From NCBI RefSeq assembly GCF_001434475.1, contig NZ_AZGF01000015.1, positions 1-54,637 of the forward strand: a stretch of 54,637 nucleotides of DNA, read 5' to 3'. Positions 8,694-54,566 of the stretch are shown piece after piece. The translations under genes were made by a program, and so were the position numbers. The first letter of the stretch is position 1. Each line of letters starts with the position of its first letter. The stretch is from Paucilactobacillus suebicus DSM 5007 = KCTC 3549 (GTDB taxonomy: Bacteria; Bacillota; Bacilli; Lactobacillales; Lactobacillaceae). The notes beneath the pieces were generated by a model. That model did not search any database. It was not told the DNA's origin and saw only the letters and a list, made by a program, of their open reading frames with translations.

Positions 8694-8832
8694 GCGCGGA
8701 GCAACACGGGTTGAGGCTGATATTTAAGGGACGCCAACGGATTAATCGCGGTTTTTGCGATTGATTTGTTGGCGTCCCTTAAATATTGAGCCTCAGTGTT
8801 GCGGAGCGCATTTCGGCTATAAAGAAGCGAGA
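8694..8832 (+). repeat. 3'-UTR hairpin element, copy A1
   Basis: Begins 7 bases after the ATPase stop. Outer arms GCGC-GGA-GCAACAC (from 8694) and GTGTTGC-GGA-GCGC (to 8809) face each other. The bulge GGGTT at 8708-8712 lies opposite a single A, followed by GAGGC / GCCTC. The inner stem ATTTAAGGGACGCCAAC / GTTGGCGTCCCTTAAAT is perfect. The apex is GATTAATCGC / GCGATTGAT. A tail ATTTCGGCTATAAAGAAGCG follows. There is no U-tract. Confidence 0.8.
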
Positions 8833-8945
8833 CAGAGGGACGCCAACGGATTAATCGCGGTTTATGCGATTGATTTGTTGGTGTCCCTTAAATATTGAGC
8901 CACAGTGTTGCGGAGCGCATTTCGACAATAAAGAAGCGAGAGGGA
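8833..8945 (+). repeat. 3'-UTR hairpin element, partial tandem copy A2
   Basis: A 109-bp offset tandem duplication of A1 that lacks the 5' outer arm. The GGGACGCCAAC apex and GTTGGTGTCCC arm are kept, with one T for C change giving a G.U pair, as are GTGTTGCGGAGCGC and the ATTTCGACAATAAAGAAGCG tail. A shorter remnant CCTCAGTATTG follows at 8949. Confidence 0.8.
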
Positions 8946-8965
8946 GAACCTCAGTATTGAAAAAA

Positions 8966-9026
8966 TAGTTTCAACAAAAAAAGCGTTCAAGAACTCAATT
9001 CCAAATTGAGCTTTTGAACGCTATTT
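8966..9026 (-). terminator. Terminator for the minus-strand MFS gene
   Basis: AGCGTTCAA...TTGAACGCT with an inner CTCAATT / AATTGAG stem. On the minus strand the hairpin is followed by a T-run, so it mainly ends the MFS transcript. Confidence 0.75.
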
Positions 9027-9034
9027 AAATTATC

Positions 9035-10225
9035 CTATCTACGCAATGCACTAATCTTCTCCAAGCGCATCAAACCAAACACAAGAATCAAAGCAAGCAA
9101 CGCCATCACAACGCCACCAATAGGAGTGATCATCAGACCGGCATGGGTTGCAATCTGGCCACCCGCAGAAGACCCAATCATAATTCCGATGTTAAATGCG
9201 GAAATATTGAGTGCGGAAGACATTTGAACATCGGCAGGTAAGTATTTTTCAGTCGCTTGCATTGTGTAAAGCTGTAGGCCAGGAACATTCATGAAGGCCA
9301 GAAGGCCCATTAAAATAATTAGTAGCAGTCCCATTACGTGATTATTTAACATGAACAACATTGCAATCATGATAATCATCAGGGTAAAGAACATCATAAA
9401 TAGTGCACGAAGAGTGTGGGTATCAGCCAGTCGACCACCAAGCGTATTTCCAATTGCGACAGCAACGCCATATACAATTAGTAAAATGACAACTAGCGAA
9501 GTATCCCATCCCTGCTTATTAAGAATGGTGGTTAAGAAAGTGTAGACTGGAAAACTGGCGCCATAGCCAATCGCAGTTAGAAGTAACGACATTAAAATGG
9601 CGGGTTGTCTAAATATTCTAACTAAGCTGCCACGCCTGGTTGGCGCGGGCATTGGTAATTCTTTTGGCACTAATAAGATATCGGCAATTAGACCGATAAT
9701 TCCAATTATCACAATGGTAACAAATGACATCCGCCAACTAGCATGATCACCAATAAATGTTCCTAAAGGTACGCCGGTCACAGTTGCCACGGTTAGACCG
9801 GTAAACATGGTTGCAATAGCAGAAGCTCGCTTATCCATTGGCACAACGCTAGCGGCAATTACGGTTGCAACGGTCATAAATAATCCATGAGCAAGTGCTG
9901 CAATTACCCGTCCAGCCAATAAAACTTGAAAGGTTGGAGCAACTGCCGTGACAAAGTTACCAAAAATAAAAATCATCATAATCATCATAATTAATTTTTT
10001 TCTTTCGATTTTGGCGGTTATTGTCGTAAGCAAAGGAGCACCAATCATTACACCGGCGGCATACATTGAGACTGTCAATCCAGCAGTAGATAATGAAATA
10101 CCAAATGCTTTGATGATCAGGGGCATTACACCAACACTGATGAATTCTGTTGAACCAATTGCAAATGCACTGATTGCTAACGCTAGTAGGGTTAGTGAGG
10201 GCGCAATTGTTGTTTCTCTAGTCAT
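9035..10225 (-). CDS. MFS transporter, DHA1 (AraJ/PbuE-like) efflux family
   Basis: The 396-residue protein has about 12 hydrophobic segments. Family features near the N-terminus are FAIGSTEFISVGVMPLI and the loop GAPLLTTITAKIERKK between helices 2 and 3. ALAHGLFMTVATVIAAS and GVPLGTFIGDHASWRMSF follow, as in sugar, nucleoside or drug efflux proteins such as AraJ, NepI and PbuE. The substrate is unknown. It is divergent from an HxlR regulator and shares its promoter region, so the regulator probably controls it. The ribosome site on the minus strand is AAGGAG, 8 bases before the ATG. Confidence 0.87.
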   Translation of the reverse strand: MTRETTIAPSLTLLALAISAFAIGSTEFISVGVMPLIIKAFGISLSTAGLTVSMYAAGVMIGAPLLTTITAKIERKKLIMMIMMIFIFGNFVTAVAPTFQVLLAGRVIAALAHGLFMTVATVIAASVVPMDKRASAIATMFTGLTVATVTGVPLGTFIGDHASWRMSFVTIVIIGIIGLIADILLVPKELPMPAPTRRGSLVRIFRQPAILMSLLLTAIGYGASFPVYTFLTTILNKQGWDTSLVVILLIVYGVAVAIGNTLGGRLADTHTLRALFMMFFTLMIIMIAMLFMLNNHVMGLLLIILMGLLAFMNVPGLQLYTMQATEKYLPADVQMSSALNISAFNIGIMIGSSAGGQIATHAGLMITPIGGVVMALLALILVFGLMRLEKISALRR

Positions 10226-10250
10226 AATTAATCTCCTTACAATAAGTTAG

Positions 10251-10305
10251 TTGAATTGTCGACAAGAATTAATTATACTAAGTACATTCAAAAAGACAAT
10301 TACGC
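10251..10305. promoter_or_regulatory. Back-to-back promoters of the MFS and HxlR genes with palindrome
   Basis: Plus strand: TTGAAT (10251-10256), 17 bases, TATACT (10274-10279). Minus strand: TTGTCT, 16 bases, TATAAT, whose -10 covers 10272-10277. The two -10 boxes overlap, so only one direction can be open at a time. The 10-bp palindrome TTGTCGACAA (10256-10265) lies in the spacer of the plus promoter and is a candidate HxlR operator. Confidence 0.6.
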
Positions 10306-10351
10306 ACTAAAAAGTGCTGTAGTTACCAAAAAGTTCCTATGGAGGACCACA

Positions 10352-10729
10352 ATGACTAAAACATACAATATTGGTGTTGAAGCAACGATGGAAGTAATTG
10401 GTGGTAAGTGGAAGTCAATCATTCTGTGTCATTTACGTCACGACACAATGCGTACCGGTGAGTTAAGACGGGCAATTCCACAAATTACTCAAAAAATGCT
10501 TACTCAACAGCTTAGAGAACTAGAATCTGATGGCATCGTTTGCCGTCATGTGTATAATCAGGTTCCACCAAAGGTTGAATATTCGTTATCAGAACGCGGT
10601 GAAAGTCTAAATCTGATTTTGAATAAATTATGTAAGTGGGGCGAACAACAGATTGATGATCGTCGTGCAAATGGTGAAGAAATTACTTTACTGCATCGCG
10701 ATGATGTTAAATTACAATCAACTAAGTAA
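10352..10729 (+). CDS. HxlR family transcriptional regulator
   Basis: The start is ATG 10352 behind TGGAGG; the longer frame from 10256 runs through the promoter and has no ribosome site. The 125-residue winged-helix protein has the HxlR pattern: a helix with VIGGKWKSIILCHL, then TGELRRAIPQITQKMLTQQLRELESDGIV as the DNA-reading helices and wing. Two cysteines (in LCHL and GIVCRH) could sense redox or electrophiles as in HypR and YodB, which is a guess. It is divergent from the MFS exporter, its likely target. A terminator follows. Confidence 0.88.
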   Translation: MTKTYNIGVEATMEVIGGKWKSIILCHLRHDTMRTGELRRAIPQITQKMLTQQLRELESDGIVCRHVYNQVPPKVEYSLSERGESLNLILNKLCKWGEQQIDDRRANGEEITLLHRDDVKLQSTK

Positions 10730-10734
10730 GCTAA

Positions 10735-10781
10735 AAGTGCTGTGATATCAGTATTTGATAGTCATGGCATATTTTTTAAAA
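10735..10781 (+). terminator. Terminator after the HxlR gene
   Basis: TGCTGTGA-TATCA pairs with TGATA-G-TCATGGCA (two G.U pairs, one bulge), followed by TATTTTTT. Confidence 0.6.
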
Positions 10782-10797
10782 ATATAGTTAGTTTTTA

Positions 10798-10845
10798 TTG
10801 ACATTATCTAACTAACTGATTATACTATGCATTGTTAGTTAGATA
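10798..10845 (+). promoter_or_regulatory. Promoter P1 with inverted-repeat operator upstream of the marR gene
   Basis: TTGACA (10798-10803), 17 bases, TATACT (10821-10826). A perfect 12-bp inverted repeat TATCTAACTAAC (10805-10816) / GTTAGTTAGATA (10834-10845) surrounds the -10 box. Further single GTTAGTT half-sites lie on both sides. This is the arrangement of a MarR autorepressor site. Confidence 0.75.
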
Positions 10846-10938
10846 AGATGCAAACTAACTAAATCATAATAGGTTCAAGGAGATGTTTTATACTAGGTTG
10901 ATCAATGAACCAAATTAAAGATATTCTTTGAATTAATG

Positions 10939-10982
10939 GTTAGTTTTAATTGACAACAACTAACTAACTAACGAATTATACT
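10939..10982 (+). promoter_or_regulatory. Second operator and possible promoter P2 next to the marR gene
   Basis: GTTAGTT (10939-10945) and AACTAAC (10958-10964) form a second dyad of the same half-sites, overlapping TTGACA (10950-10955). A TATACT lies at 10977-10982, but the 21-base spacing is too long for a normal promoter. P2 may be weak, or this may act only as an operator. Between P1 and P2 I see no convincing gene. Confidence 0.5.
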
Positions 10983-11020
10983 AACGACACTTTAAATTAA
11001 AAACAAGAGAGGTAATTAAT

Positions 11021-11698
11021 ATGACAACATATAATTCACAAGATTTACTTAATGAATTTGGACGCTTAATGAGAACATTCCGCAATCGTGGCTTTTCTGC
11101 CGTATCTAGTCAAACACGTCAATTTTGGGCAAAGCAACCGCAAAAAGGTCAAATGAGAGTTCTGTTTCTTCTGGACAAACATGATAAATTGACGAACTCA
11201 CAGATTGTTGATGAACTCGACATCCGTCCAAGCTCAGTCAGTGTGATGGTTAAAAAACTTGAAGATGATGGTCTAGTTGAGCGTCATGATTCAGCCGAGG
11301 ATAAGCGGGTTAGCTTTATTTCACTGAGTGACAAGGGCCATGAATTATTGCAGAGTTCCCACGACTTCAAAGCAGAGTTTTCTGATTCATTGTTTGATGG
11401 CTTAAACGATGAGGAGAAAGAAGAGTTTGGCAAGTTGCTGGCTAAGCTGACAGATAGCCTGGATGAAAAATTTGCCAAGTGGGATGACGGTGAAGAACGA
11501 CCAGACTTCTTTGATAATGCACCATATCAATTCTTTGGTGGTCATGGAGACCAACACGGATTCAATATGAATGGTCATCCACGCGGCCACGGACGTGGTC
11601 AATTTGGCGGATCGCGTAATGGATTTGGTTTTGGTCGTGGCGGATTTGGTGATGGATTTGATTCGTCCGAAGGTGGATTTGAGGATCCACGCAGATAG
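11021..11698 (+). CDS. MarR family regulator with Gly/His/Arg-rich C-terminal tail
   Basis: Residues 1-150 are a MarR winged-helix protein: LTNSQIVDELDIRPSSVSVM is the recognition helix region and LVERHDSAEDKRVSFISLS the wing with the conserved D-x-R. From about residue 165 a tail rich in Gly, His, Phe, Asn and Arg follows (for example GGHGDQHGFN and RGGFGDGFDSSEGG). Ordinary MarR proteins are about 140-160 residues, so the tail is an addition of about 60. It heads an operon with an ABC exporter and a monooxygenase, and the operators upstream suggest autorepression. The tail could bind metal or nucleic acid; that is inference. Confidence 0.88.
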   Translation: MTTYNSQDLLNEFGRLMRTFRNRGFSAVSSQTRQFWAKQPQKGQMRVLFLLDKHDKLTNSQIVDELDIRPSSVSVMVKKLEDDGLVERHDSAEDKRVSFISLSDKGHELLQSSHDFKAEFSDSLFDGLNDEEKEEFGKLLAKLTDSLDEKFAKWDDGEERPDFFDNAPYQFFGGHGDQHGFNMNGHPRGHGRGQFGGSRNGFGFGRGGFGDGFDSSEGGFEDPRR

Positions 11699-11726
11699 AA
11701 ATTTTGGCATGAGGAGATAAAGAACA

Positions 11727-13511: not shown

Positions 13512-13527
13512 AGAGAATTGGATAGTG

Positions 13528-13827
13528 ATGAACATGAATGAAGCAACAATTAAAGTAGTTGTTAGGTTGAAAACAACAGAAAAAGATTTAGCTGAGGCTA
13601 CTAGAATTTTAACTGATCTCGTGAAACCAACAAGGTCAAATCCAGGTAATATTGAATTTCGCGTTCTTCAAGACACAAATGATGCAACACAGTTTACGTT
13701 GATTGAAAATTGGAAGAGCATGGCAGCTGTTGATTCACACGCTAAGGAAGATTACATGGCTGAATTTACAGCGAAGAAAGATCAACTTTTTCCAATTTCG
13801 ACAGGTGAAATTGTACGAGAGTTTTAG
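13528..13827 (+). CDS. Antibiotic biosynthesis monooxygenase (ABM) domain protein
   Basis: The product is about 99 residues, a dimeric ferredoxin-like ABM-fold protein. TIKVVVRLKTTEKDLAEATR opens it, with IEFRVLQDTNDATQFTLIENW as the central strand-Trp motif and a late FTAKKDQLF helix. Such proteins oxidise quinone-like molecules or act as stress-related small monooxygenases; the substrate here is unknown. It follows the ABC exporter by 13 bases and ends the operon, so it may detoxify the exported compound. The start may instead be GTG 13525 or ATG 13534; the ribosome site AAGAG is weak and suggests translational coupling. Confidence 0.78.
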   Translation: MNMNEATIKVVVRLKTTEKDLAEATRILTDLVKPTRSNPGNIEFRVLQDTNDATQFTLIENWKSMAAVDSHAKEDYMAEFTAKKDQLFPISTGEIVREF

Positions 13828-13829
13828 AC

Positions 13830-13865
13830 TAAAAAAGCCATTCCGATTTGGAATGGCTTTTTCTT
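13830..13865. terminator. Bidirectional terminator between convergent operons
   Basis: AAAAAAGCCATTCC / GGAATGGCTTTTT around GATTT. Serves both the plus-strand monooxygenase operon and the minus-strand gene ending at 13864. Confidence 0.88.
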
Positions 13866-14091: not shown

Positions 14092-14112
14092 TTTACTCAG
14101 CTCCTTTGCAGT

Positions 14113-14734: not shown

Positions 14735-14896
14735 ATTGCTAATTTAATATTCGTCCACATTAAACCAATGAAGTGGAGATCAAGGTAGTTGTGCACGCAC
14801 AGAGAGTTGACGCAGCTGAGAGTTCAATCGAACGCAGACTACTAAATGGACCACGGAGGGAGTGACGAAAAGATTAGGTGATTTGCCAGGTGATGA

Positions 14897-14991
14897 ACAG
14901 AGCGTTTTGACATTGAGGACTAACGTTGATTACGGGACGGTCGCGAAGCGATCGTTTCGGAATCAGTGTTAGCAGCAGATGTCAGCTCTGT
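14897..14991 (+). other. Inserted hairpin in T-box leader 1, with GTTT bulge
   Basis: ACAGAGC (14897-14903), a GTTT bulge (14904-14907), TGACAT (14908-14913), then ATGTCA (14979-14984) and GCTCTGT (14985-14991). The bulge has nothing opposite it. The interior has CTAACGTTGATT facing AATCAGTGTTAG, and CGATCG stems. The fold is the same as in the intergenic hairpin elements of this window. Confidence 0.65.
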
Positions 14992-15256
14992 GAATCCAGT
15001 TATGATTACCTAATCCGATTACCTCACTACGTTAAGCACGCGTCAGTTGCTAGGAATGTGTTTGCATTTCGTTAATGGAGAGTAGAAGAGTTTGAGGCTG
15101 AATGGCCGAAACGTGTTCGATGAACGTGATCCCTATCGGATAAGGAAATTAAATATCAATCGCCAAGAGCGCGATCAATATTCAATCTCCTTATCCCACG
15201 GGATCAGCCCCGTTCATCTCACACTCTTTTAAAATAAGGTGGCACCGCGGAAAAAT

Positions 15257-15304
15257 AATCCGTCCTTATAACAAGCATTGTTTGTTATGTGGACGGATTT
15301 TTTG
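15257..15304 (+). terminator. T-box 1 regulated terminator
   Basis: ATCCGTCC-TTATAACAA / TTGTTAT-GTGGACGGAT followed by a T-run. The 5' half overlaps the region needed for the antiterminator formed with the T-box sequence. Confidence 0.88.
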
Positions 15305-15334
15305 TTACCTACAATTTGAAAAGAGGTTATCGCG

Positions 15335-16774: not shown

Positions 16775-16776
16775 CC

Positions 16777-17431: not shown

Positions 17432-17584
17432 TCATAACAACTTAATATTCGTCCACAGGAAACCGATGAAGTGGAGATCAAGATAGCCGTGCACGCACAG
17501 AGAGTTGACGCAGCTGGGAGTTCAATCGAACGCAGACTATTAAATGGACCACGGAGGGTTTCGCCGAAAGCTTTAAGGTGATGA

Positions 17585-17689
17585 GTGAGACGGGTTGTTG
17601 TTGAGGATTAACGTTGATGACGGGATGATTGCGAAGCAATCGTTTCGGCATCAGGGTTAACCGGAAACAACAGTCTCACGGATCCAGTC
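17585..17689 (+). other. Inserted hairpin in T-box leader 2, with GGGTT/A loop
   Basis: GTGAGAC (17585-17591), bulge GGGTT (17592-17596), GTTGTT (17597-17602), then AACAAC (17676-17681), single A (17682), GTCTCAC (17683-17689). The GGGTT versus A asymmetry is identical to that in the intergenic hairpins A1, B1 and C1. Confidence 0.65.
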
Positions 17690-17940
17690 ACCAAACCCAA
17701 GTACGCGAAAACGTAAAAGCATACGTCAGTTGCAAGGAATGTGTTGGCATTTCGTTAATGGAGAGTAGAAGAGTTTGAGGCTGAATGGCCGAAACGTGTT
17801 CGGCGGGTCTGATCCCTACTGGATAAACTGAATAAATACCGATCGCCAAGTACGCGATCAATATTTATCCAGCTTATCCAACGGGATCAAAGCAACCCGC
17901 CTCACACTCTTCTAAAATAAGGTGGCACCGCGGAATATGA

Positions 17941-17988
17941 TATCCGTCCTTATAACAAACTAGTTTTGTTATGTGGACGGATTTTTTT
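17941..17988 (+). terminator. T-box 2 regulated terminator
   Basis: ATCCGTCC-TTATAACAAA / TTTGTTAT-GTGGACGGAT, loop CTAG, followed by seven T. Confidence 0.88.
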
Positions 17989-18014
17989 GTATCTAGACTT
18001 GAGGAGGTCTCGCG

Positions 18015-21684: not shown

Positions 21685-22444
21685 TTTAAAAGAAGCATTT
21701 AGCAAGGAAAAAACATTCGTGGCTTTCACAGTGGCTGGAGATCCGAATATCGATAAGAGTATTGAATACACAGTGGCATTGGCCAATGCTGGTGCTGATG
21801 TGATTGAATTAGGAATTCCATTTAGTGATCCAATTGCGGATGGACCGGTGATTCAAAAGGCTGGATTGCGTGCCTTTGATGCTGGAATTGATACTGATAA
21901 AATTTTTGACATGGTGAGTCGCATTCGTGAACAAACCGATGTACCATTGGTCTTCTTATCATACTTAAATAAACTATACGATTACGGGTATGAAGAATTC
22001 TTTACAGAATGTGAAAATCGCGGAGTGAGTGGCGTGGTTATTCCAGACTTACCGTTTGAAGAACGTGGTGAAGTAGACGAACAAGCAACGGCACACAATG
22101 TTTCAATTATTCCATTGGTTGCACCAACCTCTGGTGATCGAGTTCAAAAAATTGTGGAAGACAGTACTGGATTTATCTACCTAGTATCTTCACTAGGAAT
22201 TACCGGTGTGCGTGATAATAATCAGATGGCCGGTGATTTGAGTGAAACGGTTGCTAAGATTCGTGAGTACACGGATACACCAGTTGCGGTTGGTTTCGGT
22301 ATTCATACACCAGAACAGGTAACAGAAATGAATCGAATCGCAGATGGCGCTATTATTGGTTCCGGCATTGTGAAGTTGATTGAAGCAGATCCTGATAATG
22401 CTACGGATAGTATTGAGGAGTATGTGAGGAATATTAAGGCATAG
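21677..22444 (+). CDS. trpA: Tryptophan synthase alpha chain
   Basis: The 255-residue subunit releases indole from indoleglycerol phosphate and channels it to TrpB. Diagnostic motifs are the active-site Glu in [17 protein letters not shown], the second catalytic Asp in VIPDLPFEE, and the phosphate loop GFGIHTPEQ. It is last in the trp locus. A long hairpin element starts 3 bases after its stop. Confidence 0.96.
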
Positions 22445-22446
22445 AC

Positions 22447-22590
22447 AGCGAAGTAAGTACGGGTTGAGGCCGGTGTCCAAGGGGGCTAGCATAGATTAAT
22501 CGTGAACTTTACGATTGATGTATGCTAGCCCCCTTAGACGTTAGGCCTCAGTACTTACGGGGCTGATTTCAGAAAAATTTAAAGAGAACG
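22447..22590 (+). repeat. 3'-UTR hairpin element, copy B1
   Basis: Starts 3 bases after the trpA stop. AGC-GAA-GTAAGTAC pairs with GTACTTAC-GGG-GCT. The bulge GGGTT (from 22461) faces one A, then GAGGCC / GGCCTC. The inner stem is AAGGGGGCTAGCATA / TATGCTAGCCCCCTT, and the apex AGATTAATCG / CGATTGAT. The tail is GATTTCAGAAAAATTTAAAGAG. No U-tract. Confidence 0.8.
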
Positions 22591-28315: not shown

Positions 28316-29719
28316 ATGACATATCAAGTAATTAATCCATTAACTGGGAATCAAGAAACTGAATTTGATAAGACAACCGATGAACAAGTTGAACAAGCAC
28401 TCCAGCGTGGGCATCAATACTATGTTGAACAAGCACTCCAGCGTGGGCATCAATACTATGTTGATCAACGGCAAGTTGGTTTTGTAACTAGAGCGAAACA
28501 ATTAGCTATGATCGCAGATTCATTTCGACAAAATGTTGAGCTACTCGCCAAGATGGCGGCTTCTAATATGGGCAAGCTGTATCAAGAAGGTTTAGGCGAA
28601 GCCAACGCAGCCGCTAATATTGCTCAGTACTACGCTGATAATGGTCCGCAGGCATTGGTGGACAAACCATATACCTATTTAGACAATCAAAAAGCGGTGT
28701 TGCGATACGAATCAACAGGAATTGTTTTGGCGGTCGAACCATGGAATTTTCCATACACGCAAGTCATGCGCGTCTTTGCACCAAACTTTTTATTAGGAAA
28801 TCCCGTGATCTTAAAACATTCTCACTTAGTCGCTGGTTGCGCAGACCTTTTTCAAGAATTAGTTTGGGCAACTGATGTCGATCGCGGAGCATTCCAAAAC
28901 TTGTTTATCGACAGCCAACAGGTTGGCAAAATGATTGCAGATATGCGGGTTCAAGGTGTAGCTCTCACTGGCTCGGCGAATGCTGGTAGTGCGGTGGCCG
29001 CTGAAGCCGGTAAGGCAATGACTAAATCAACCCTCGAACTGGGTGGCAATGATGCGTTTGTTGTTCTGAGTGATGCTGATGTTGGACAAGCCGTCAAGGA
29101 TGGTGCAACGTCACGTCTACGAAACGCCGGTCAAGTTTGTACATCCGCTAAACGGTTTATTGTTCACCAAGATGTTGCAGATCAATTCATTGATGGCATG
29201 GTCCAAGAATTTGAGAGTCGATACCCAGGATCGCCACTCGATCAATCAACGACCTTAGCACCGCTTGCTTCAAAAGATGCACAAATGCACTTACAGCGAC
29301 AAGTGGATCTTGCAGTTGAAGATGGGGCCAAGGTGTTGGTTGATGGTGGAGCGATTGAATCAGAACCAGGTAATTTCTTCAAACCAGTCTTGTTGAAGAT
29401 GACACCTAGCAATTCAATGTATGACGAAGAGTTTTTTGGCCCTGTTGGTCAAATCTACGTTGTTAAAGATGACGAAGAAGCCGTTGCATTAGCGAATTTA
29501 TCACAGTTTGGCTTGGCAGGAGCAGTGTACTCACAATCACCAAAACATGCACGCACGGTTGCTAACCAAATGGAGACCGGTCAAATATTTATTAATCAAC
29601 CATCAAACGGATATCCACAATTACCATTTGGCGGCATTAAAAACTCAGGTTATGGTCGCGAAATGAGCGATTTAGCTTTATATGAATTTGCCAATCAAAA
29701 AATGATTGCGCTTGGATAG
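28316..29719 (+). CDS. NAD(P)-dependent aldehyde dehydrogenase, probable sulfolactaldehyde dehydrogenase
   Basis: The start is ATG 28316 behind AAAGAGG. The 467-residue protein belongs to the succinate-semialdehyde-type ALDHs: VEPWNFPY, ALTGSANAGSAVAAEA, the catalytic Glu in ELGGNDAF and the catalytic Cys in RNAGQVCTSAKRF. By its position in a transaldolase-type sulfoquinovose cluster it probably oxidises 3-sulfolactaldehyde to sulfolactate; the substrate is inferred. A 36-bp exact tandem duplication at 28388-28459 repeats 12 residues (VEQALQRGHQYY) near residues 25-48, so the protein has 12 extra residues in an N-terminal helix. The GPH transporter gene starts 16 bases after its stop. Confidence 0.9.
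   Translation: MTYQVINPLTGNQETEFDKTTDEQVEQALQRGHQYYVEQALQRGHQYYVDQRQVGFVTRAKQLAMIADSFRQNVELLAKMAASNMGKLYQEGLGEANAAANIAQYYADNGPQALVDKPYTYLDNQKAVLRYESTGIVLAVEPWNFPYTQVMRVFAPNFLLGNPVILKHSHLVAGCADLFQELVWATDVDRGAFQNLFIDSQQVGKMIADMRVQGVALTGSANAGSAVAAEAGKAMTKSTLELGGNDAFVVLSDADVGQAVKDGATSRLRNAGQVCTSAKRFIVHQDVADQFIDGMVQEFESRYPGSPLDQSTTLAPLASKDAQMHLQRQVDLAVEDGAKVLVDGGAIESEPGNFFKPVLLKMTPSNSMYDEEFFGPVGQIYVVKDDEEAVALANLSQFGLAGAVYSQSPKHARTVANQMETGQIFINQPSNGYPQLPFGGIKNSGYGREMSDLALYEFANQKMIALG
28388..28459 (+). repeat. Exact 36-bp in-frame tandem duplication in the aldehyde dehydrogenase gene
   Basis: Two identical 36-bp units (28388-28423 and 28424-28459), followed by a partial third start GTTGATCAA. The units have no substitution between them, which implies a recent event. 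Confidence 0.97.
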
Positions 29720-37430: not shown

Positions 37431-38435
37431 ATGAAATTCATTAAGCGGATTACGTTAGTGATGGTGACGATTTTATTAGCGGCAGTTTTTGGTTCAGCAG
37501 CCAACGTTAAGGCTGATACTACTGATGAATCGAGTAGTAGTCAAGCAGTTCAAACACAGGCACTTTCAAATTCTTACGTTGTGTATGGAGCTGGGGTGTC
37601 ATCGACTGACCAATCTTCAGTAGGAGAAGCGTTGGGAGTGACTGACAGTTATAAGACATTGACTTCAACAGCTAGTGATTATAGTCAGTATATTGGTGGT
37701 ACGACTACCGATTCAGCGATGATCAGTTCTGTGGCTATTGCACCGGCAAGTTCTGGTACAGGAGTTAAGGTCAATATTATGAAGTATAACGGCAATAGCA
37801 ATATTACTGAAGTTACCGCGCAACAGTATGCGATGGTGGCGACAATGGCTGGTGTTAATAACGTTATTATCACAGTTACCGCCAATAAGGCTGTGTCTGG
37901 ACAAGCTGCTCTGGCTGGCGTCTATAAGGCACTCGCTGCTGATGGCATTCAACTAAGTTCCGAAAATACAACGGCCGCAAACAGTGTGCTTACAGCAACT
38001 CAGTCGGCGATTGACGACAACAGCAATAATAGCAAGTATCCTGGAAAACTAATGGCAGCTGTTGGCTCGGTTTCAGGGAAATTAGCTAAGGAACGGCAAA
38101 ACAATGGCGATTATGCCACAACCTCTGAAGTTGAAACGATGCTTAATACCGCATTAACAAAATATGGCGTTAATGATGATACATCGTCGAGTGCCAAGAC
38201 AGAGATTGTTAACGCATTGATTAAGGTACAAAAAGCACCTGTATCTTCATCCAAGACCTATGTAAGTAACGTAACTAATGTTACGAACAACATCAAAAAC
38301 AGTGCCGGTAATGCAATGGCAAAGCTAAGCGATTTTGCCAACAGCTCTGATGGCAAGGCATTAATGGCAAAATACGGCAACATTTTCCAACGTGTATGGG
38401 CCAGAATTGTGGCGTTTGTGGGACAGTATATATAG
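37431..38435 (+). CDS. Secreted DUF1002 domain protein
   Basis: The 334-residue protein has a clear signal peptide (MKFIKR followed by a hydrophobic stretch and VKA-DT) and no anchor motif, so it is probably released. The DUF1002 region is seen in VVYGAGVSSTDQ, VNIMKYNGNSNITEVTAQQYA and the Thr/Val-rich stretch before AALAGVYKALAADG. The function of this family is unknown. AGGAGGAAG precedes the ATG. A cluster of long hairpin elements begins 10 bases after the stop. Confidence 0.85.
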   Translation: MKFIKRITLVMVTILLAAVFGSAANVKADTTDESSSSQAVQTQALSNSYVVYGAGVSSTDQSSVGEALGVTDSYKTLTSTASDYSQYIGGTTTDSAMISSVAIAPASSGTGVKVNIMKYNGNSNITEVTAQQYAMVATMAGVNNVIITVTANKAVSGQAALAGVYKALAADGIQLSSENTTAANSVLTATQSAIDDNSNNSKYPGKLMAAVGSVSGKLAKERQNNGDYATTSEVETMLNTALTKYGVNDDTSSSAKTEIVNALIKVQKAPVSSSKTYVSNVTNVTNNIKNSAGNAMAKLSDFANSSDGKALMAKYGNIFQRVWARIVAFVGQYI

Positions 38436-38444
38436 AGAACGTAA

Positions 38445-38570
38445 CAAGCACGGGTTGAGGCTGTTGTGTAAGGCACTATCACAGATTAATCGTGTGTTTT
38501 CGATTGATTTGTGATAGTGCCTTACACGTTAAGCCTCAGTGCTTGTGGAGCTGATTTCAAATAGAGAGAG
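38445..38570 (+). repeat. 3'-UTR hairpin element, copy C1
   Basis: CAAGCAC (38445-38451), GGGTT bulge (38452-38456), GAGGCT, then AGCCTC, single A, GTGCTTG (38539-38545). The inner stem is TGTGTAAGGCACTATCACA / TGTGATAGTGCCTTACACG, and the apex GATTAATCG / CGATTGATT. The tail is TGGAGCTGATTTCAAATAGAG. No U-tract. Starts 10 bases after the DUF1002 gene. Confidence 0.8.
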
Positions 38571-38575
38571 CGGAA

Positions 38576-38712
38576 CCAAGCGTTTAGGTGTTGTAATATA
38601 AGTGAAAGAAACGGTTAATCGTTCGCTCTATGACGATTGGCCGTTTCTTTCACTTATATTATGAACACCTGCTTGGTGGAGCTCATTTCAGCAATAAAGC
38701 AGTAAAGAGTAT
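38576..38712 (+). repeat. 3'-UTR hairpin element, copy C2
   Basis: CCAAGC (38576-38581), GTTT bulge (38582-38585), AGGTGTT, then AACACCT (38664-38670) directly joined to GCTTGG (38671-38676). The inner stem is AATATAAGTGAAAGAAACGG / CCGTTTCTTTCACTTATATT, and the apex TTAATCG...CGATTGG. The tail is AGCTCATTTCAGCAATAAAG. Confidence 0.8.
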
Positions 38713-40108: not shown

Positions 40109-41278
40109 ATGGAAAAAGAACAGTTATTACAGGAATATCAACAAGTTTTCAGCGAAGTTGGCAAATCGGTTTACTTTTCGCCAGGCCGAATCAATTTGAT
40201 TGGTGAATATACAGACTTTAATGGCGGCCATGTTTTTCCTTGTGCAATCAGTCTTGGAACTTATGGTGTCTTTTCTCCGCGTTCAGATAACAAAGTTCGC
40301 CTTTCATCAGCAAACATGGCAGATAGTCCAGTTGTTGAATTTGATATTAATGAGTCGGAACCAGAAACAGCCAAGGAAAATACGTGGGCAAACTATTTTA
40401 AGGGTATGATTGTTCAACTACGTCAGAATGGCTATTCGTTTGACCATGGCTTTAACCTGCTGGTTCATGGTAACCTGCCATACGGAGCCGGATTATCATC
40501 TTCCGCATCAATTGAATTATTGATGGGCGATATTTTGAAGGAAGAATACGGACTTGATGTTGAGCAATTGACTCTCGTAAAGCTTGGTCAAAAAGTGGAA
40601 AATGACTATATTGGTCTGAATTCTGGCATTATGGATCAGTTTGCTGTGGGGATGGGCAAAAAAGATAATGCAATTCTACTTGATGCCAACACGTTGGAAT
40701 ATCATTACTACCCATTGGAGTTAGGCGATTATATCGTTGTGATTATGAATACTAATAAGAAACATGCATTAGCAGATTCAAAATACAATGAACGCCGTGC
40801 ACAAAACGAAGAAGCAGTTAGGCGACTTCAAGCTAAACTCGATATCAAGTACTTAGGCGAATTAACAACAGATCAGATTGACCAGTACTCATATTTGATT
40901 AACGATGATATTTTGATTCGTCGTGCTCGCCACGTGGTAATTGAAAATCAACGGACATTGCAGGCTCGTGATGCATTATTAAAGGGTGATTTAGAGTTGT
41001 TAGGTCGCTTGATTAATGCATCACACGTCTCATTGGAATACGATTATGAAGTATCAGGAGTTGAATTAGATACTTTAGCTGAGACAGCCTGGAAACAACC
41101 TGGTGTCTTAGGAGCCCGTATGATTGGCGGCGGATTCGGTGGCAGTGGTATTGCCATCGTGAAGAAGGACCAAGTGGAAAACTTCAAGAAAAATGTTGGT
41201 CAAGCATATGTTGACAAGATTGGATACGAAGCAGATTTCTACGACACAGAAATTGCGGATGGACCGAAAAAGTTATAG
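40109..41278 (+). CDS. galK: Galactokinase
   Basis: The start is ATG 40109 behind TTGGAGG; the in-frame start 40094 overlaps the ribosome site. The 389-residue GHMP kinase phosphorylates galactose at O1 with ATP. The galactokinase signature is SPGRINLIGEYTDFNGGHVFP, the ATP loop is PYGAGLSSSASIELL, and MIGGGFGGSGI is motif 3. First gene of the Leloir pathway here; galT and galR follow. No galE or galM is in the window. A hairpin element begins 2 bases after its stop. Confidence 0.96.
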   Translation: MEKEQLLQEYQQVFSEVGKSVYFSPGRINLIGEYTDFNGGHVFPCAISLGTYGVFSPRSDNKVRLSSANMADSPVVEFDINESEPETAKENTWANYFKGMIVQLRQNGYSFDHGFNLLVHGNLPYGAGLSSSASIELLMGDILKEEYGLDVEQLTLVKLGQKVENDYIGLNSGIMDQFAVGMGKKDNAILLDANTLEYHYYPLELGDYIVVIMNTNKKHALADSKYNERRAQNEEAVRRLQAKLDIKYLGELTTDQIDQYSYLINDDILIRRARHVVIENQRTLQARDALLKGDLELLGRLINASHVSLEYDYEVSGVELDTLAETAWKQPGVLGARMIGGGFGGSGIAIVKKDQVENFKKNVGQAYVDKIGYEADFYDTEIADGPKKL

Positions 41279-41279
41279 A

Positions 41280-41421
41280 GTGCGTTATGTCGCGTTTAGA
41301 TGCCGGTGTGTAAGGTAACTTCATGCATTGATTGTCGGTCTGTGACAATTGATGTATGAAGTTACCTTACACGTTAGGCATCTGCGACATAAAAGCACGT
41401 TTCGGCAAGAAAGCCTAAGAG
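41280..41421 (+). repeat. 3'-UTR hairpin element, copy D1
   Basis: GTGC (41280-41283) and TATGTCGC (41286-41293), GTTT bulge (41294-41297), AGATGCC, then GGCATCT (41377-41383) joined directly to GCGACATA (41384-41391) and GCAC. The inner stem is GTGTAAGGTAACTTCAT / ATGAAGTTACCTTACAC, and the apex ATTGATTGTC / GACAATTGAT. The tail is GTTTCGGCAAGAAAG. Confidence 0.8.
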
Positions 41422-41439
41422 TGCAAATTGAAGCAGTAT

Positions 41440-41545
41440 AATTAATATCTATTGATTGTCGGTCTGTGACAATTAGTGTATGAAGTTAAGTTATTCGATA
41501 GACATCAGTGCCTGAAAAGCACGTTTTAATAAGTAATTACATTGG
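41440..41545 (+). repeat. 3'-UTR hairpin element, degraded tandem copy D2
   Basis: The apex CTATTGATTGTCGGTCTGTG is identical to D1. TATGAAGTTAAGTTATTCGA is a decayed inner arm, with a GACATCAGTGCC remnant and GCACGTTTTAATAAG tail. The 5' arm is missing. The rest up to 41611 shows nothing except GCTTCAC...GTGAAGC (about 41550-41573), a small stem before galT. Confidence 0.65.
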
Positions 41546-44109: not shown

Positions 44110-44113
44110 ATCT

Positions 44114-47881: not shown

Positions 47882-47893
47882 GAGGTACTCATA

Positions 47894-48838
47894 ATGGAAA
47901 CATTAGCCGTAATTGACTTAGGTTCTAACTCGGCACGAATGACAATGACAGAAATTCATGATGATGGTAGTTATAAAGTGATTCAAAGGGTTAAACGAAT
48001 GGTTCGCCTGTCACAGGCGATGGGTGAAGAAGAAACTCTTAAGCAGCCAGCCATGGACCGAACTATTCAGGCACTAAAGGAATTTCAGGAGATATATCGG
48101 CAACAGGATGATATCACGTTACGAGCAGTCGGCACGGCAGCGATTAGAATGGCGAAGAATCAGGCCGAATTTCTTCAACGTGTTAAAGATGAGGTCGATG
48201 GGCTAGAAATCGAAGTCATTTCCGGTTCAATGGAGGCCCACTATGATTATTTAGGGGTGATCAATACTTTACCAGCCACTAATTGTGTCATCATGGATAC
48301 TGGTGGCGCCAGTTGCGAACTGATTTTAGTTCAAAATGGTAAGGCTCAAAACCTAATTAGTATTCCAATTGGTGCGGTTAACCTGTCTGAAAAATTCTTT
48401 AAGAATCGGACAGATGTGTTCAGAGCTGAAGATTTATTTTGGGAGACAACGTTTGTTAATCGACTATTTAACGGGGTATGGTGGCTTCATAAGGGCCAAA
48501 ACTTACCAGTAGTCGCCTTAGGTGGTAGTAACAGAACACTGGCTAAAATTTTTCGAAAGCAATCTGACATGATCAATTTCGAAGATATTCATGGCTATCG
48601 AATGTCAGTTGAGCAGGTTGAACAGGTCTATGCTGAAATAATTAGCAAAAATCTTGAAGAAAGAAAAAAGATCCCTGGGTTATCCAAGGATCGAGCAGAT
48701 ATCATTGCTGGAGGAATCACACCGATTGTAACGATATTACGATATTTAGATTCGGATCGAATTACGTTCTCACAAAACGGTGTGCGCGAAGGGATATTGT
48801 TTGAACATTTGACTGAACTACAAGAGAGTGAAAAATAA
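47894..48838 (+). CDS. ppx: Exopolyphosphatase (short Ppx/GppA form)
   Basis: The 314-residue protein is of the Ppx/GppA family with intact active-site motifs: VIDLGSNSARMTMTEI at the start (phosphate loop 1), AVGTAAIRMAKN (residues 79-90), and IMDTGGASCELILV (phosphate loop 2). The short form lacks the C-terminal domains of enteric Ppx. It releases phosphate from polyphosphate ends and so opposes Ppk in the same operon. The last codons and the stop are part of a long hairpin (48828-48938). Confidence 0.93.
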   Translation: METLAVIDLGSNSARMTMTEIHDDGSYKVIQRVKRMVRLSQAMGEEETLKQPAMDRTIQALKEFQEIYRQQDDITLRAVGTAAIRMAKNQAEFLQRVKDEVDGLEIEVISGSMEAHYDYLGVINTLPATNCVIMDTGGASCELILVQNGKAQNLISIPIGAVNLSEKFFKNRTDVFRAEDLFWETTFVNRLFNGVWWLHKGQNLPVVALGGSNRTLAKIFRKQSDMINFEDIHGYRMSVEQVEQVYAEIISKNLEERKKIPGLSKDRADIIAGGITPIVTILRYLDSDRITFSQNGVREGILFEHLTELQESEK

Positions 48839-48938
48839 ATCGTTAAGGTCCAGTTACATAAGCGGCCCCGGCGGATATTCAAGGGTTTAGAGTATCCGCC
48901 GGGGCCGCTTATGTTGCAGGACCTGACTTATTTTTCAC
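48828..48938 (+). repeat. Long hairpin E spanning the ppx stop codon
   Basis: GTGAAAAATAA (48828-48838, includes the TAA stop) pairs with TTATTTTTCAC (48928-48938). AGGTCC / GGACCT follows, then ACATAAGCGGCCCCGGCGGA / TCCGCCGGGGCCGCTTATGT (20 perfect bp), extended by ATATTC / GAGTAT. An AGTT / TGCA internal loop sits where other copies have GTTT. It is the most GC-rich stretch of the window. There is no shared tail, so membership of the family is uncertain. Confidence 0.7.
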
Positions 48939-48991
48939 GTTTAGACAAGGCTGCCCAAACGTGATCTATCTGAATTTTACTGTTGCTAAAC

Positions 48992-49654: not shown

Positions 49655-49703
49655 AAATACCCTTCCCTTCATCATTAATCATGGCTAGCATATCACGTTT
49701 GAA

Positions 49704-49746
49704 AAAAAATAACGAATGATCCAATGGCGGGTCATTCGTTATTTTA
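49704..49746. terminator. Terminator between the alcohol dehydrogenase and FLP genes
   Basis: AATAACGAATGATCC / GGGTCATTCGTTATT with loop AATGGC, A-run on the left and T-rich right side. Acts mainly for the minus-strand alcohol dehydrogenase. Confidence 0.8.
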
Positions 49747-49763
49747 GTTTTATTTAATACTAA

Positions 49764-50930: not shown

Positions 50931-50951
50931 TATAAAATTCCTCCAGATTAA

Positions 50952-50972
50952 TTTGAAAATTATTTCACAAAA
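50952..50972. promoter_or_regulatory. Candidate Rex-like operator upstream of the alcohol dehydrogenase
   Basis: Minus-strand TTGTGAAATAATTTTCAAA resembles the Rex (NADH sensor) site TTGTGAAN4TTCACAA in its first half and most of its second. A related dyad TTATGAAA-ATTT-TTTCATAA lies at 51084-51103. Other content of this 390-base gap is AT-rich, with CAACCGGTTG as a short palindrome near 51160, and the symporter ribosome site at 51308. Confidence 0.4.
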
Positions 50973-51321
50973 CTATGAAAAAATAAGTGGATTGTTATTT
51001 CAAATCCATTCATTATTTTCATCACACGAGTATTGTATTATTTAGAATTACATTTTGCAACCCTTATTTTACTTAAAATTATGAAAATTTTTTCATAATA
51101 AATCAAAATATTTGGTTTTAAATGATACACGTCGTTGATTGTTCACCTAAAAACTTACAACCGGTTGCACAGCCTTGGCCAATAAAAAAATATGTTAATT
51201 ATTAAAGAAAAATGATAATTTTTTAAATATAAAGCGGATTCAAAGGTCCACGTCATGTACGATTGTGCTAAACTGAAAATTGTTTAAAAAAATGCTGGTG
51301 TATATATAGGAGGATGCTCTC

Positions 51322-52611
51322 ATGCGTCGTTATCGGTCAATACGTCTTAGTTTGGGATGGCAGATTGTCATCGGGTTAATTTTAGGTATTATTGCAGGGG
51401 TTATTTTTTATAAGAACACGGCAGCGATTAAGGTAATGTCCAACCTAGGGACCATGTTTATCAGCATGATTCAAATGATTGTTCTACCAATTGTTGTTTC
51501 ATGTTTGACTGTCGGAATTGCCGGCATGGGTGATGTACATAAATTAGGTCGTGTTGGTGTCAAAACCCTAGTATATTTTGAAATTATGACTACCATTGCC
51601 ATTGTTATTGGTTTGATTGTCGGTAACGTAACTCAAATTGGGACGTTTATTGATATTCATCAGCTACATGCGACTGATATTTCGCAGTATATGTCGACGG
51701 CTAAATCAGCATCTTCTCATTCTGGAATCTGGGATACAATCATGAGCATTATCCCGACTAACTTCTTCAAGGCCCTGTCGACTGGCGACATGATGCCAGT
51801 CATTTTCTTCTCAGTCTTCTTTGGACTGGGAACTGCGGCTATTGGTGAGCGTGGTAAGATCATTGTTGATTTTTTACAAGCTGTTTCAGAAGTTATGTTC
51901 AAGGTAACTAACTGGGTCATGAAATTTGCTCCAATTGGTGTCTTTGGATTGATCGGGATGACATTAGCAGAAATGGGAATTAGTGCATTGCTGCCACTGG
52001 GACTATTTGTGCTGGTGACATATGCGACAATGGCATTTTTTATTGTGTTTGTTTTGGGAACCGTGGCCCGAATTTTCCATGTGAAGTTCTGGAAGCTGAT
52101 GAGTGTTGTTAAAGAAGAATTTATTATTGCCTTTTCAACAGCATCTTCTGAAGCAACCTTACCTCGTTTAATTGATAAGATGCATAAATTTGGCGTGAGC
52201 GAAGGAATTGTTTCATTTGTTATACCAACAGGATATACATTCAACCTTGATGGATCAGCAATTTACCAATCATTAGCTGCATTATTCTTGGCACAAGCCT
52301 ACGGGATCCACTTAACAATTGCCCATCAAATTACATTACTGGTTGTGTTAATGATTACTTCAAAGGGAATGGCTGGTGTTCCCGGTGCCTCGTTTGTTGT
52401 TCTATTAGCCACTGTGTCAACGATTGGTGTACCAATGTCTGGGTTGACTTTTATTGCCGGCATTGATCGTTTTGTTGATATGGCCAGAACTTCTGTTAAC
52501 GTTGTTGGTAACTCTGTTGCTACAATCGTAATTGGAAAATCTGAGCATGAATTTGATGACGAAAAGAACGCCAAGTATTTAGAAACTTTTGATAAACCGA
52601 AAAAGGCTTGA
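51322..52611 (+). CDS. Dicarboxylate/amino acid:cation symporter (DAACS family)
   Basis: The 429-residue protein has about eight membrane helices and two re-entrant hairpins: FSTASSEATLPRLIDK (serine-rich hairpin HP1), the substrate and sodium site VIPTGYTFNLDGSAIYQ, and MTSKGMAGVPGASFVVLLAT (hairpin HP2). The family imports glutamate, aspartate or C4 dicarboxylates with protons or sodium. AGGAGGATG precedes the ATG. It is followed after 14 bases by pepF, so both may share a transcript. Confidence 0.93.
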   Translation: MRRYRSIRLSLGWQIVIGLILGIIAGVIFYKNTAAIKVMSNLGTMFISMIQMIVLPIVVSCLTVGIAGMGDVHKLGRVGVKTLVYFEIMTTIAIVIGLIVGNVTQIGTFIDIHQLHATDISQYMSTAKSASSHSGIWDTIMSIIPTNFFKALSTGDMMPVIFFSVFFGLGTAAIGERGKIIVDFLQAVSEVMFKVTNWVMKFAPIGVFGLIGMTLAEMGISALLPLGLFVLVTYATMAFFIVFVLGTVARIFHVKFWKLMSVVKEEFIIAFSTASSEATLPRLIDKMHKFGVSEGIVSFVIPTGYTFNLDGSAIYQSLAALFLAQAYGIHLTIAHQITLLVVLMITSKGMAGVPGASFVVLLATVSTIGVPMSGLTFIAGIDRFVDMARTSVNVVGNSVATIVIGKSEHEFDDEKNAKYLETFDKPKKA

Positions 52612-52625
52612 GAGGAATGATTTAA

Positions 52626-54430
52626 TTGGCTGATAAACAACTACCCAGTAGAGATGAAGTTGCTGACAACCTGAAATGGAATCTGGCATTATTATTTGAC
52701 TCAGATGATCAAATGCGCCAAGCACTCAACCAGACTGCTGAATCCGTTCAGGAGTTTACCCAGTTAGAGGGACATGTGGGTGAGAATGCCACTAATTTAT
52801 TGACAGCATTACAAACATCAAAACGAATTGATGAACAGCTGGAGCGCGAGTATGTGTATGCGTTCATGCGTCGTGATAGTGATACTACAGACACTGAGGC
52901 TGTTGGTATCTATGGTGAAGCGGCTAACGCTCTCAGCAAAATTAGTGCGCAAATGGCGTTTTTGGATCCTGAAATTATTGCTATCGATGAAGATACGTTA
53001 AAAGAGTACCAAAGTACTGATCATGCATTTGATGAGTTTAAATTTGAACTTGAACAATTACGTAGTCAACGTGACCATATTTTATCTGATAAGGAAGAAA
53101 AACTTCTTAGTCGTGTTAATAAGGCGCTCGATGGTGCAGAAGAAATATATAACACCCTTAACGATGCAGATTTGTCTTTCGGTAAGGTACATGACGATAA
53201 TGGTGATTTGGTTGAATTAACTCATGGGAATCGTAGCCAATTCACTGAATCCCAGCATCGTGAAGTTCGCAAAGAGGCTACTTTGGCATATGAAAAGCCG
53301 TATTATGATTTACGTAACACGTTTGCACAGACTTTCAATAGTTTGTGGGATCTCAAAATACACAGGCGGAGATTCGACATTATGATAGTGCCCGTCAAGC
53401 TTCACTTTCAGGTAATCACATAGACGAGAGCGTCTATGATACATTGGTAAAGAGTGTTAATGACCATATGTCACTGTCACATCGTTGGTATGCAATGAAG
53501 AAAAAAAGCCTAGGTTTGGATACGATGTATAAGTATGACATTAACGTACCACTAGCGGGCGAAGATTTCTTAAAGACTAACTTTGAAGATGGCAAGAAGA
53601 TGACGTTAGATGCGTTAAATATTCTTGGATCTGAGTACATTGATGGATTAAAAAAGGAATTTGATAATCGCTGGATTGATGCTGCAGAAAACAAAGGAAA
53701 GCGTTCCGGCGGATATCAAATTAGCGTGTATGATGCCAATCCGTTTATTTTGTTGAATTGGACTGATAAGTTGTACAGTACTTATGTTTTGGCTCATGAA
53801 TCAGGACATGCCATGCATAGTTATTTTTCGTCGCAGAATCAGCCGTCGCAGTATGCGGATGCACCCATTTTCTTGGCAGAAGTAGCGTCAACTTTTAATG
53901 AAAATATTCTGACTGACTATTTGCTTGAAAAATATAGTGATAACAAGCAAATTTCAATTTTTATTTTGGAACAGTATATTACTGGTTTTATTGGTACAAT
54001 TTATCGCCAAACACAATTTGCAGAGTTTGAACACCAAGCCTATACGGCCGAACAGAATGGTACGACGTTGACTGCCGATTTCTTAGACAAATTGAGTGGC
54101 GACCTGGTAAACAAGTACTATGGGCCAGCAATTAAAGAAACGGGTACTAGAACGCAAAGCTGGGCGTATGTACCGCATTTCTATATGAACTACTATGTAT
54201 ATCAGTATGCAACGTCATGGGCCGTTTCTACGGCGCTATCTAATAGAGTATGGAATCGTGAAGACGGTGCGTTAGACAATTATTTCAACTTTTTAAAGGC
54301 GGGCGGATCAGACTATCCGGTTAACACCTTGAAAAAGGCAGGAGTAGATGTGACTGATGATGAGTATCTCAAACAGGCATTTGCGGTGTTTGAGAAACGA
54401 CTGGATCAGATGGAAGATTTACTAAAGTAA
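52626..54430 (+). pseudogene. pepF: Oligoendopeptidase F family gene, interrupted by a single-base frameshift
   Basis: Two overlapping frames (52626-53423 and from 53345) together encode about 601 residues of one M3-type metallopeptidase. The first frame reads through LRNTFAQTFNSL, then goes out of frame. The second resumes at VGSQNTQAEIRHYDSARQAS and contains the zinc motif HESGHAMHSYF (53795 onward). One base is missing near GTTTGTGGGA at about 53341-53350, or this is a sequencing error. The start is TTG 52626 behind GAGAGGAA. PepF cleaves oligopeptides of 7-17 residues in the cytoplasm. As read, no intact enzyme is made. Confidence 0.85.
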
Positions 54431-54438
54431 GATACGAA

Positions 54439-54566
54439 GGAAACACGGTTTGAGACCGATGTGTAAGGAGGCAATGATGGGTAAGCGCTGTGCTTGCACT
54501 TAGTCATCATTGCCTCCTTACACGTTAGGTCTCAGTGTTTCCGGATTTCAGTTAGCCTAAGAGATA
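54439..54566 (+). repeat. 3'-UTR hairpin element, copy F
   Basis: GGAAACAC (54439-54446), bulge GGTTT (54447-54451), GAGACC, then GGTCTC, single A, GTGTTTCC (54535-54542). The inner stem is GTGTAAGGAGGCAATGATG / CATCATTGCCTCCTTACAC. The tail is GGATTTCAGTTAGCC. It begins 9 bases after the pepF stop. From 54567 to the window end nothing else is recognised. Confidence 0.8.

Follow-up and report, generated by a model that had tools for sequence, protein, structure and literature searches.

A family of long hairpin units in Lactobacillaceae that inserts at gene ends, commonly within the stop codon

Introduction

Several genes of Paucilactobacillus suebicus DSM 5007 = KCTC 3549 are followed, at or within a few nucleotides of their stop codons, by long hairpins that share a bulge on one arm and differ in the sequence of their stems, raising the question of what these hairpins are and how they came to occupy that position. 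The stretch analyzed here (hereafter, the window) comprises the 54,637 nt of contig NZ_AZGF01000015.1, on which a first-pass annotation, made from the letters and their open reading frames (ORFs), had described five such hairpins (copies A, B, C, D and F). It had attributed their fold to selection on RNA shape or to arm-to-arm correction during replication, and had also considered a mobile palindromic element.

Our results demonstrate that these hairpins belong to a family of non-coding units of about 130 nt that fold on the gene strand into a single hairpin of about 50 bp and that, in the samples studied, are almost confined to the Lactobacillaceae. The units have moved within genomes, mostly through sense-strand insertion at gene ends, and their commonest insertion point lies after the second base of a TAA or TAG stop codon, where the first G of the unit gives TAG. 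The element family is apparently undescribed. Much of the first-pass reading stands (shape selection, adjacency to stop codons, the lack of an Rfam family and mobility), but arm-to-arm correction is not supported as the main cause; insertion into the stop codon itself and the Lactobacillaceae-wide range both go beyond what had been claimed.

Anatomy and fold of the units

All five copies were found at the positions originally given, each on the strand of its gene. The upstream stop codons end at positions 8687, 22444, 38435, 41278 and 54430 for copies A, B, C, D and F, respectively, and the first conserved G of the corresponding units lies at 8692, 22444, 38435, 41278 and 54431. Pfam backs the gene names assigned on first inspection (ABC ATPase, TrpA, DUF1002 and galactokinase; for oligopeptidase F, its M3 peptidase half), and the galactokinases closest to that of the window belong to Paucilactobacillus. 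The description of these copies as long hairpins is borne out by folding energies of -69 to -82 kcal/mol, where shuffles average -30 to -36 kcal/mol (z -11.8 to -13.6 versus dinucleotide shuffles, with 0 of 200 shuffles equalling any copy), and the bulge confined to the 5' arm, the variable yet complementary inner stem and the absence of a U-tract were likewise described correctly.

Matched units average 134 nt and contain 49-50 pairs. They start with GAG(T/C)G and a short base stem, often followed by a purine-rich internal loop, and continue through a 7-8 bp stem, a 4-nt bulge restricted to the 5' arm, a 7 bp stem, a small internal loop and a stem of about 29 bp to a loop of about 7 nt. The end of the unit resembles CACGTTTC, copy A having, for instance, the variant GCGCATTTC. 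In many copies the purines of the basal internal loop read GGA/GGA or GA/GA, and in some copies pairs replace this loop, resulting in a continuous 14-bp base stem. Pairs resembling ATAAG/CTTAT recur among copies, and the remaining stem sequence varies while pairing. Behind many full units the apical part is repeated together with the 3' arm and the tail, up to three times, and these partial tandem copies could have arisen by hairpin slippage or as 5'-truncated insertions. Several arrays in one genome (G175; loci L276, L278, L279, L281, L330, L336, L400 and L401) alternate two unit types in tandem, as if the two had spread in combination.

Distribution of the family

The covariance-model search proposed in the first-pass annotation was carried out with a model built from the five copies (R1), and it recovered more copies both in the P. 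suebicus genome (G000) and in relatives. R1 matches in G000 number 118 (E ≤ 0.01), a figure that includes tandem units and, by inspection, about a dozen opposite-strand echoes. Many lactic acid bacteria carry copies, up to about 100 per genome. Using a second model (R2, E ≤ 1e-10), matches were obtained in 150 of 301 sampled Lactobacillaceae genomes, spanning 23 of 40 genera, in a survey that scored no more than 11 candidates in each genome and hence gives lower bounds for per-genome copy numbers. About half of the genomes sampled from this family, to which food and gut bacteria belong, thus carry the unit. In a class sample outside those, which holds at least one Lactobacillaceae genome (G065) and for most of which kinship is not listed, 1 of 249 genomes matched. 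This genome (G488), from another family of the class, harbors two identical 125-nt hairpins (L348 and L349; 55 bits) that share the bulge and the letters of the adjoining stem, and that are possible distant relatives of the family. A blastn search with copy C against plasmids and phages returned no match, a single copy being a weak probe because the family is highly variable, and a pattern scan of IMG/VR yielded two matches, neither of which was confirmed by the covariance model.

Placement relative to genes

To describe genomic context, gene ends were defined as open stretches of at least 60 codons, rather than by annotation. The context counts cover 83 of the 118 matches in G000 and 28 of the 45 in P. 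hokkaidonensis (G001, one of the Paucilactobacillus congeners G001-G006), mainly the higher-scoring ones; loci from other genomes are top matches, some of them orthologous to one another. Of 224 flanked copies, 128 start within 15 nt past a same-strand stop codon, so that stop-adjacent copies with the conserved bulge are found well beyond the original five. Directly behind the stop codon lie 65 copies, and in 64 of these the stop is TAG. Cruder rules gave 122 copies near a stop and 60 directly behind one, and 4.4% of random positions in such stretches fall within a comparable distance past a stop. The other copies are tandem followers (32), have an ORF running into the unit (23), or lie behind small ORFs (9), behind a terminator-like hairpin (7), behind tRNAs (2) or at 16-60 nt from a stop (4), and 19 are unclassed; the tandem, terminator and tRNA classes are defined by simple patterns. 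The existence of further copies and their non-random placement had been set beforehand as tests of the first-pass annotation, and both favored it.

The three bases preceding AGTG (n = 156) are TAG in 79 copies, AAG in 30, CAG in 28, GAG in 9 and others in 10, and the base preceding the first G of the unit is nearly always A. Among stops lying 1-15 nt upstream, TGA occurs at 2 of 63, against 26 of 194 in a background that is small and biased, and we make no claim of TGA avoidance from this comparison.

In P. hokkaidonensis, units at 462327 and 505794 lie directly behind apparent tRNA genes, one of them with an Rfam tRNA match (L126), so that placement extends beyond stop codons. A further unit (L287:800-1000, in G255) lies directly past the end of what looks, by its motif, like a thiamine pyrophosphate riboswitch aptamer.

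Mobility and insertion within stop codons

The possibility of a mobile element is supported by empty sites in related species and by dispersed near-identical copies. At the end of galK, P. vaccinostercus presents the unit-free sequence CTATAATAATC, with a TAA stop, and P. suebicus reads TTATA-GAGTG (hyphens mark the start of the unit). Among the Limosilactobacillus galK loci listed, many end in plain TAA and two in plain TAG, and those bearing units read TA-GAGTG (five), TAA-GAGTG (two) or, in L. frumenti, TAATA-GAGTG. In Lactiplantibacillus, galK ends in GCTTAA in L. mudanjiangensis and L. modestisalitolerans and in GCTTA-GAGTG in L. songbeiensis and L. dongliensis, and others end differently. 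The last residue of TrpA is the same in P. suebicus, which carries a unit, and in two unit-free relatives (G004, TAG; G005, TAA), and three other relatives have longer TrpA ends. The DUF1002 protein is one residue shorter in the window than in P. vaccinostercus, and the stop match is therefore not exact everywhere.

The G175 genome provides further instances. At L277, TAG and a unit occupy the codon at which 4 of 4 relatives listed have TAA. L282 reads AATTAG followed by a unit, and the 14 relatives listed end in GCTTAA (6), GCTTAG (2) or differently (6). The relatives of L332 present two TAG and two TAA stops, and at L337 the unit lies directly behind TAA, which is also the stop in 4 of 4 relatives. 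Comparison with empty sites in sister species thus also places some insertions just behind the stop codon rather than within it. Within G175 we examined 18 copies, a subset of those in the genome, that are at least 96% identical; eight are tandem and the other ten all lie 0-10 nt from a stop, a range that takes in 4.8% of the window's strand-specific intergenic positions.

Selection on pairing and strand

In an alignment of 99 copies from several genera (A3), 95.6% of 4,895 pair cells are paired, against 60.6% in shuffled and 34-45% in slid controls, with double-sided changes at 50 of 51 pairs. Having been aligned to the model, A3 leans in its pairing towards the model structure, a bias that is addressed by these controls and by an alignment of the five window copies not fitted to the model (A1), which on its own shows double-sided change at 27 of 51 pairs. 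In 110 of 111 copies the unit strand folds more stably than the complementary strand. Moreover, A3 contains 419 G-U and 35 A-C pairs (743 and 429, respectively, expected under independence), and the large excess of G-U over A-C indicates that it is the fold of the gene strand that is under selection. Covariation across the 99 copies and this asymmetry support the first-pass proposal of selection on RNA shape.

Older copies at the same location remain paired. In two pairs of same-site copies from sister species, we observed six double, two one-sided pair-keeping and no broken pair changes, and two further such pairs have zero paired-site changes. Two paralogous units of the window, located antisense in gene leaders (15096 and 17779), differ in the same manner, with 31 of their 47 pairs unchanged, 9 doubly changed, 7 changed on one side with pairing kept and none broken. 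The identity of these two paralogues is 73% in the arms and 72% in the unpaired parts, and their 60-nt flanks are 97% identical on the tail side and 85% on the other.

The 18 recent G175 copies present 17 paired-site changes (12 pair-keeping, 5 broken and 0 double) and 24 unpaired ones. One-sided changes in young copies and double changes in older ones fit selection for pairing, and arm-to-arm correction is not needed to account for them; with 17 of 17 paired-site changes one-sided, such correction is not supported as the main cause, although some double transversions in the sister-species copies leave room for it.

Units and leaders in the window

The five copies first described are real, but that list was incomplete, having missed four strong (R2) and two weaker copies. 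Partial 3' copies trail A, C and D in tandem. The units of the window are as follows.

8692-8826 (+): copy A, full unit, a few nt past the ABC ATPase stop (ABC_tran); R2 125.7 bits, z -11.8
8836-8944 (+): partial copy of A in tandem, from the inner 5' arm through the loop to the 3' arm and tail; direct repeat D4, 94%
14889-15015 (+): weaker, degenerate copy in the first T-box-like leader; R2 52.4 bits and fold
15096-15225 (-): strong additional copy, antisense, in the T-box-like leader of a trpE-like gene; R2 96.9 bits, flanked by sub-threshold T-box matches
17577-17703 (+): weaker, degenerate copy in the second leader; R2 45.4 bits and fold
17779-17908 (-): strong additional copy, antisense, in the paralogous T-box-like leader; R2 100.8 bits, spanned by a sub-threshold T-box match
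22444-22582 (+): copy B, immediately at the TAG ending trpA, whose ends were compared in relatives; R2 109 bits, z -13.4
38435-38566 (+): copy C, immediately at the TAG ending the DUF1002 gene; R2 105 bits, z -12.0
38567-38701 (+): strong additional copy C2, a second full tandem unit with different stems; R2 108.8 bits
38734-38935 (+): 3' part of C2 twice more in tandem, as partial copies; direct repeat D1, 101-nt period, 94% and 74%
41278-41415 (+): copy D, immediately at the TAG ending galK, the site being empty (TAA) in P. vaccinostercus; R2 121.9 bits, z -13.6
41420-41539 (+): degenerate tandem copy of D; R2 23.6 bits, repeat D8
48827-48955 (+): strong additional copy, which the ORF at 47894-48838 enters, stopping within its 5' arm; R2 79.6 bits, z -10.8
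54431-54566 (+): copy F, directly past the TAA of the oligopeptidase F ORF; R2 94.9 bits, z -12.4

Two paralogous T-box-like leaders (14741-15316 and 17439-18000, +) precede trpE-like and trpD-like genes, and each holds one antisense and one weaker sense unit. A same-strand stop codon is consequently not found upstream of every copy in the window. The Rfam T-box matches in these leaders fall below the gathering score, one being split in two around the units and the other spanning them. Oligopeptidase F is encoded by two overlapping ORFs in different frames (52626-53423, Peptidase_M3_N, and 53345-54430, Peptidase_M3; both +), so that the gene looks broken or the sequence carries an indel.

Relation to known elements

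The first-pass annotation knew of no named family of this kind. An Rfam match had also been set beforehand as a test, and the outcome favored the annotation. The window gave no match to Rfam 15 at gathering score, with an E-value search giving no family either, and on five loci Rfam returned, besides the neighboring tRNA, sub-threshold matches only, mostly to microRNA models; Rfam 15 holds no model for the family. Among the matches listed in the open-access PubMed Central (PMC) literature, no description of the hairpin family was found, and an excerpt of PMC2864571 names Lacto-int and other motifs without an Rfam number.

By the tests made, the element is REP-like in behavior but is not a REP. 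Like the REP/BIME sequences associated with RAYT in E. coli, Pseudomonas and others, the units are dispersed, imperfect extragenic palindromes of which a share lies within 15 nt of a stop, a location at which REPs are reported to stall ribosomes (excerpt of PMC12306157). GTAG REPs, attributed to Y1-type transposases, have termini that often supply a TAG stop, as the units do, but REP palindromes measure about 20-40 bp (excerpts of PMC3733652) and the units about 130 nt. Unlike REPs, the units lack a GTAG/CGTC tag at the hairpin foot, the base before TAG being variable in the rows listed, their stem sequence is almost free, they occur nearly exclusively in Lactobacillaceae in the samples studied, and the P. 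suebicus genome has no Y1 gene.

The bcr1 element of the Bacillus cereus group is about 155 bp long and generates a TTTAT target duplication. Judged by its description, it is likewise a dispersed Firmicute element, comparable in length and predicted to have a conserved fold. We know of no stop-codon insertion by bcr1, nor of stop-codon targeting by the hairpin elements of sponge mitochondria. The latter resemble the units as repetitive hairpins that invade intergenic regions (excerpt of PMC2800124), but do so in organelle genomes. Pneumococcal BOX, RUP and SPRITE are also structured intergenic repeats, clustered and inserting into each other, BOX with potential T-box motifs (excerpt of PMC10969869); they belong to another taxon and are set apart from the units by description only.

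Proposed origin and role

On balance, we infer that the units are probably non-autonomous mobile elements whose placed copies act as hairpins of the 3' untranslated region (UTR), with pairing kept by selection. Units insert, mostly in sense, at gene ends, where the first G often restores a TAG stop. The placed unit would then constitute a 3'-UTR hairpin facing the terminating ribosome and 3'-to-5' exonucleases, as reported for E. coli REP sequences, and selection on this role would keep the arms paired as their sequence drifts. That placement in the stop codon is so exact is easier to understand if insertion is targeted than if it is random and selection follows.

Several observations weigh against this proposal. 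The step involving the terminating ribosome is drawn by analogy only. By the classification rules used, 19 of the 224 copies have no upstream gene end, tRNA, terminator or tandem partner, and these, together with the antisense copies in leaders, indicate that a stop codon is not required. The TA target duplication suggested by galK, a feature of the kind that marks classical MITEs, is not upheld at the G175 loci, where no clear duplication is seen at L277 and L337 and AATTA is a possible one at L332, the right end being ambiguous by a few bases. In the recent G175 copies, distinct changes amount to 0.174 per paired site and 0.303 per unpaired site (16 over 92 and 10 over 33 sites, respectively; p 0.24), and changes from Watson-Crick pairs to G-U versus A-C stand at 7 to 2 (p 0.18), or 8 to 2 when every change is counted (p 0.11). 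Recent copies by themselves thus fail to prove selection in place, and the older copies carry the argument. Finally, no mobilizing enzyme was found, the parent transposon having been sought only through Y1 transposase and reverse transcriptase genes. Y1 (PF01797, E ≤ 1e-5) has no match in G000, G001, G002, G003, G005 and G006, and reverse transcriptase (PF00078) has one match in the P. suebicus genome and is absent from 6 of 6 congeners. Y1 does occur in G004, and 90 of the 301 genomes have it. On these counts, neither enzyme was retained as a general driver.

A purely selfish DNA element, in which a transposase recognizes the single-stranded DNA hairpin and mispaired copies are immobile, without any RNA role, is possible, but we consider it unlikely. 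It would accommodate the recent dispersal of near-identical copies in G175, the tandem and composite arrays, the lack of significant post-insertion constraint at paired sites of recent copies and the precedent of GTAG REPs and their Y1-type transposases (PMC3733652, in the excerpt cited above), and strand-specific G-T pairs would suit single-stranded DNA equally well. Yet orthologous and paralogous copies stay paired long after insertion, with no broken pairs, and neither P. suebicus nor P. hokkaidonensis has Y1. Selection without targeting is somewhat more doubtful still. Under this scenario many A-preceded sites receive units, of which only the sense copies beside stops are kept for an RNA function, which is compatible with the same placement data (128 of 224 near a stop), with the A that nearly always precedes the unit and that TAA and TAG always offer, and with the units behind tRNAs and terminators. 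The ten recent non-tandem G175 copies, however, already lie at stops, so that removal elsewhere would need to be fast and strong, and insertions deeper in the 3' UTR should do no harm.

Two other explanations appear highly improbable. Quasi-palindrome correction, in which replication corrects one arm from the other and no selection operates, draws on the double changes of sister-species copies, which include some double transversions and, in one pair, no one-sided change, as well as on the proneness of hairpins to template switching and the existence of partial tandem copies. Such a process would treat G-T and A-C alike, against the 419 to 35 observed, and is at odds with the exclusively one-sided paired-site changes of recent copies and with the persistence of a one-sided bulge. 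Common intrinsic terminators, or hairpins at processed 3' ends that were passed down together with the gene, are just as improbable. They would share the 3' location and a very stable hairpin, but the units lack a U-tract and end like CACGTTTC followed by mixed sequence, 26 of 110 copies have a separate terminator-like site in the 300 nt downstream, and 7 copies themselves follow a terminator-like hairpin. Empty sites and dispersed near-identical copies also speak against inheritance with the gene.

Returning to mobile elements with a 3'-UTR role, a bolder extension, which we advance as speculative, is that the units represent the first mobile elements in bacteria to target the termination codon itself. 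Sense insertion at RNA 3' ends (stops, tRNAs, terminators and unit tails) would imply an RNA-end-guided or translation-coupled route without Y1 or a known reverse transcriptase, for example through A-site cleavage of the stop codon after its second base, and the 5' G would have evolved to heal the stop.

If the proposed role holds, a single RNA fold behind many unrelated genes would represent a shared, movable control of 3' ends. Near-perfect pairing with free sequence provides a natural experiment on the strength of RNA-shape selection. Insertion within a stop codon that restores the stop is an unusual route to harmlessness for an element, and it makes testable what marks gene ends for insertion.

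Further observations

Two repeats of other kinds were noted. Behind galK, Lactiplantibacillus plantarum EGD-AQ4 (L198) carries a different tandem array, made of short ACGTTAATCGTC-like repeats. In the window, a perfect 36-nt tandem duplication at 28388-28459 (+) lies within an ORF and repeats twelve codons.

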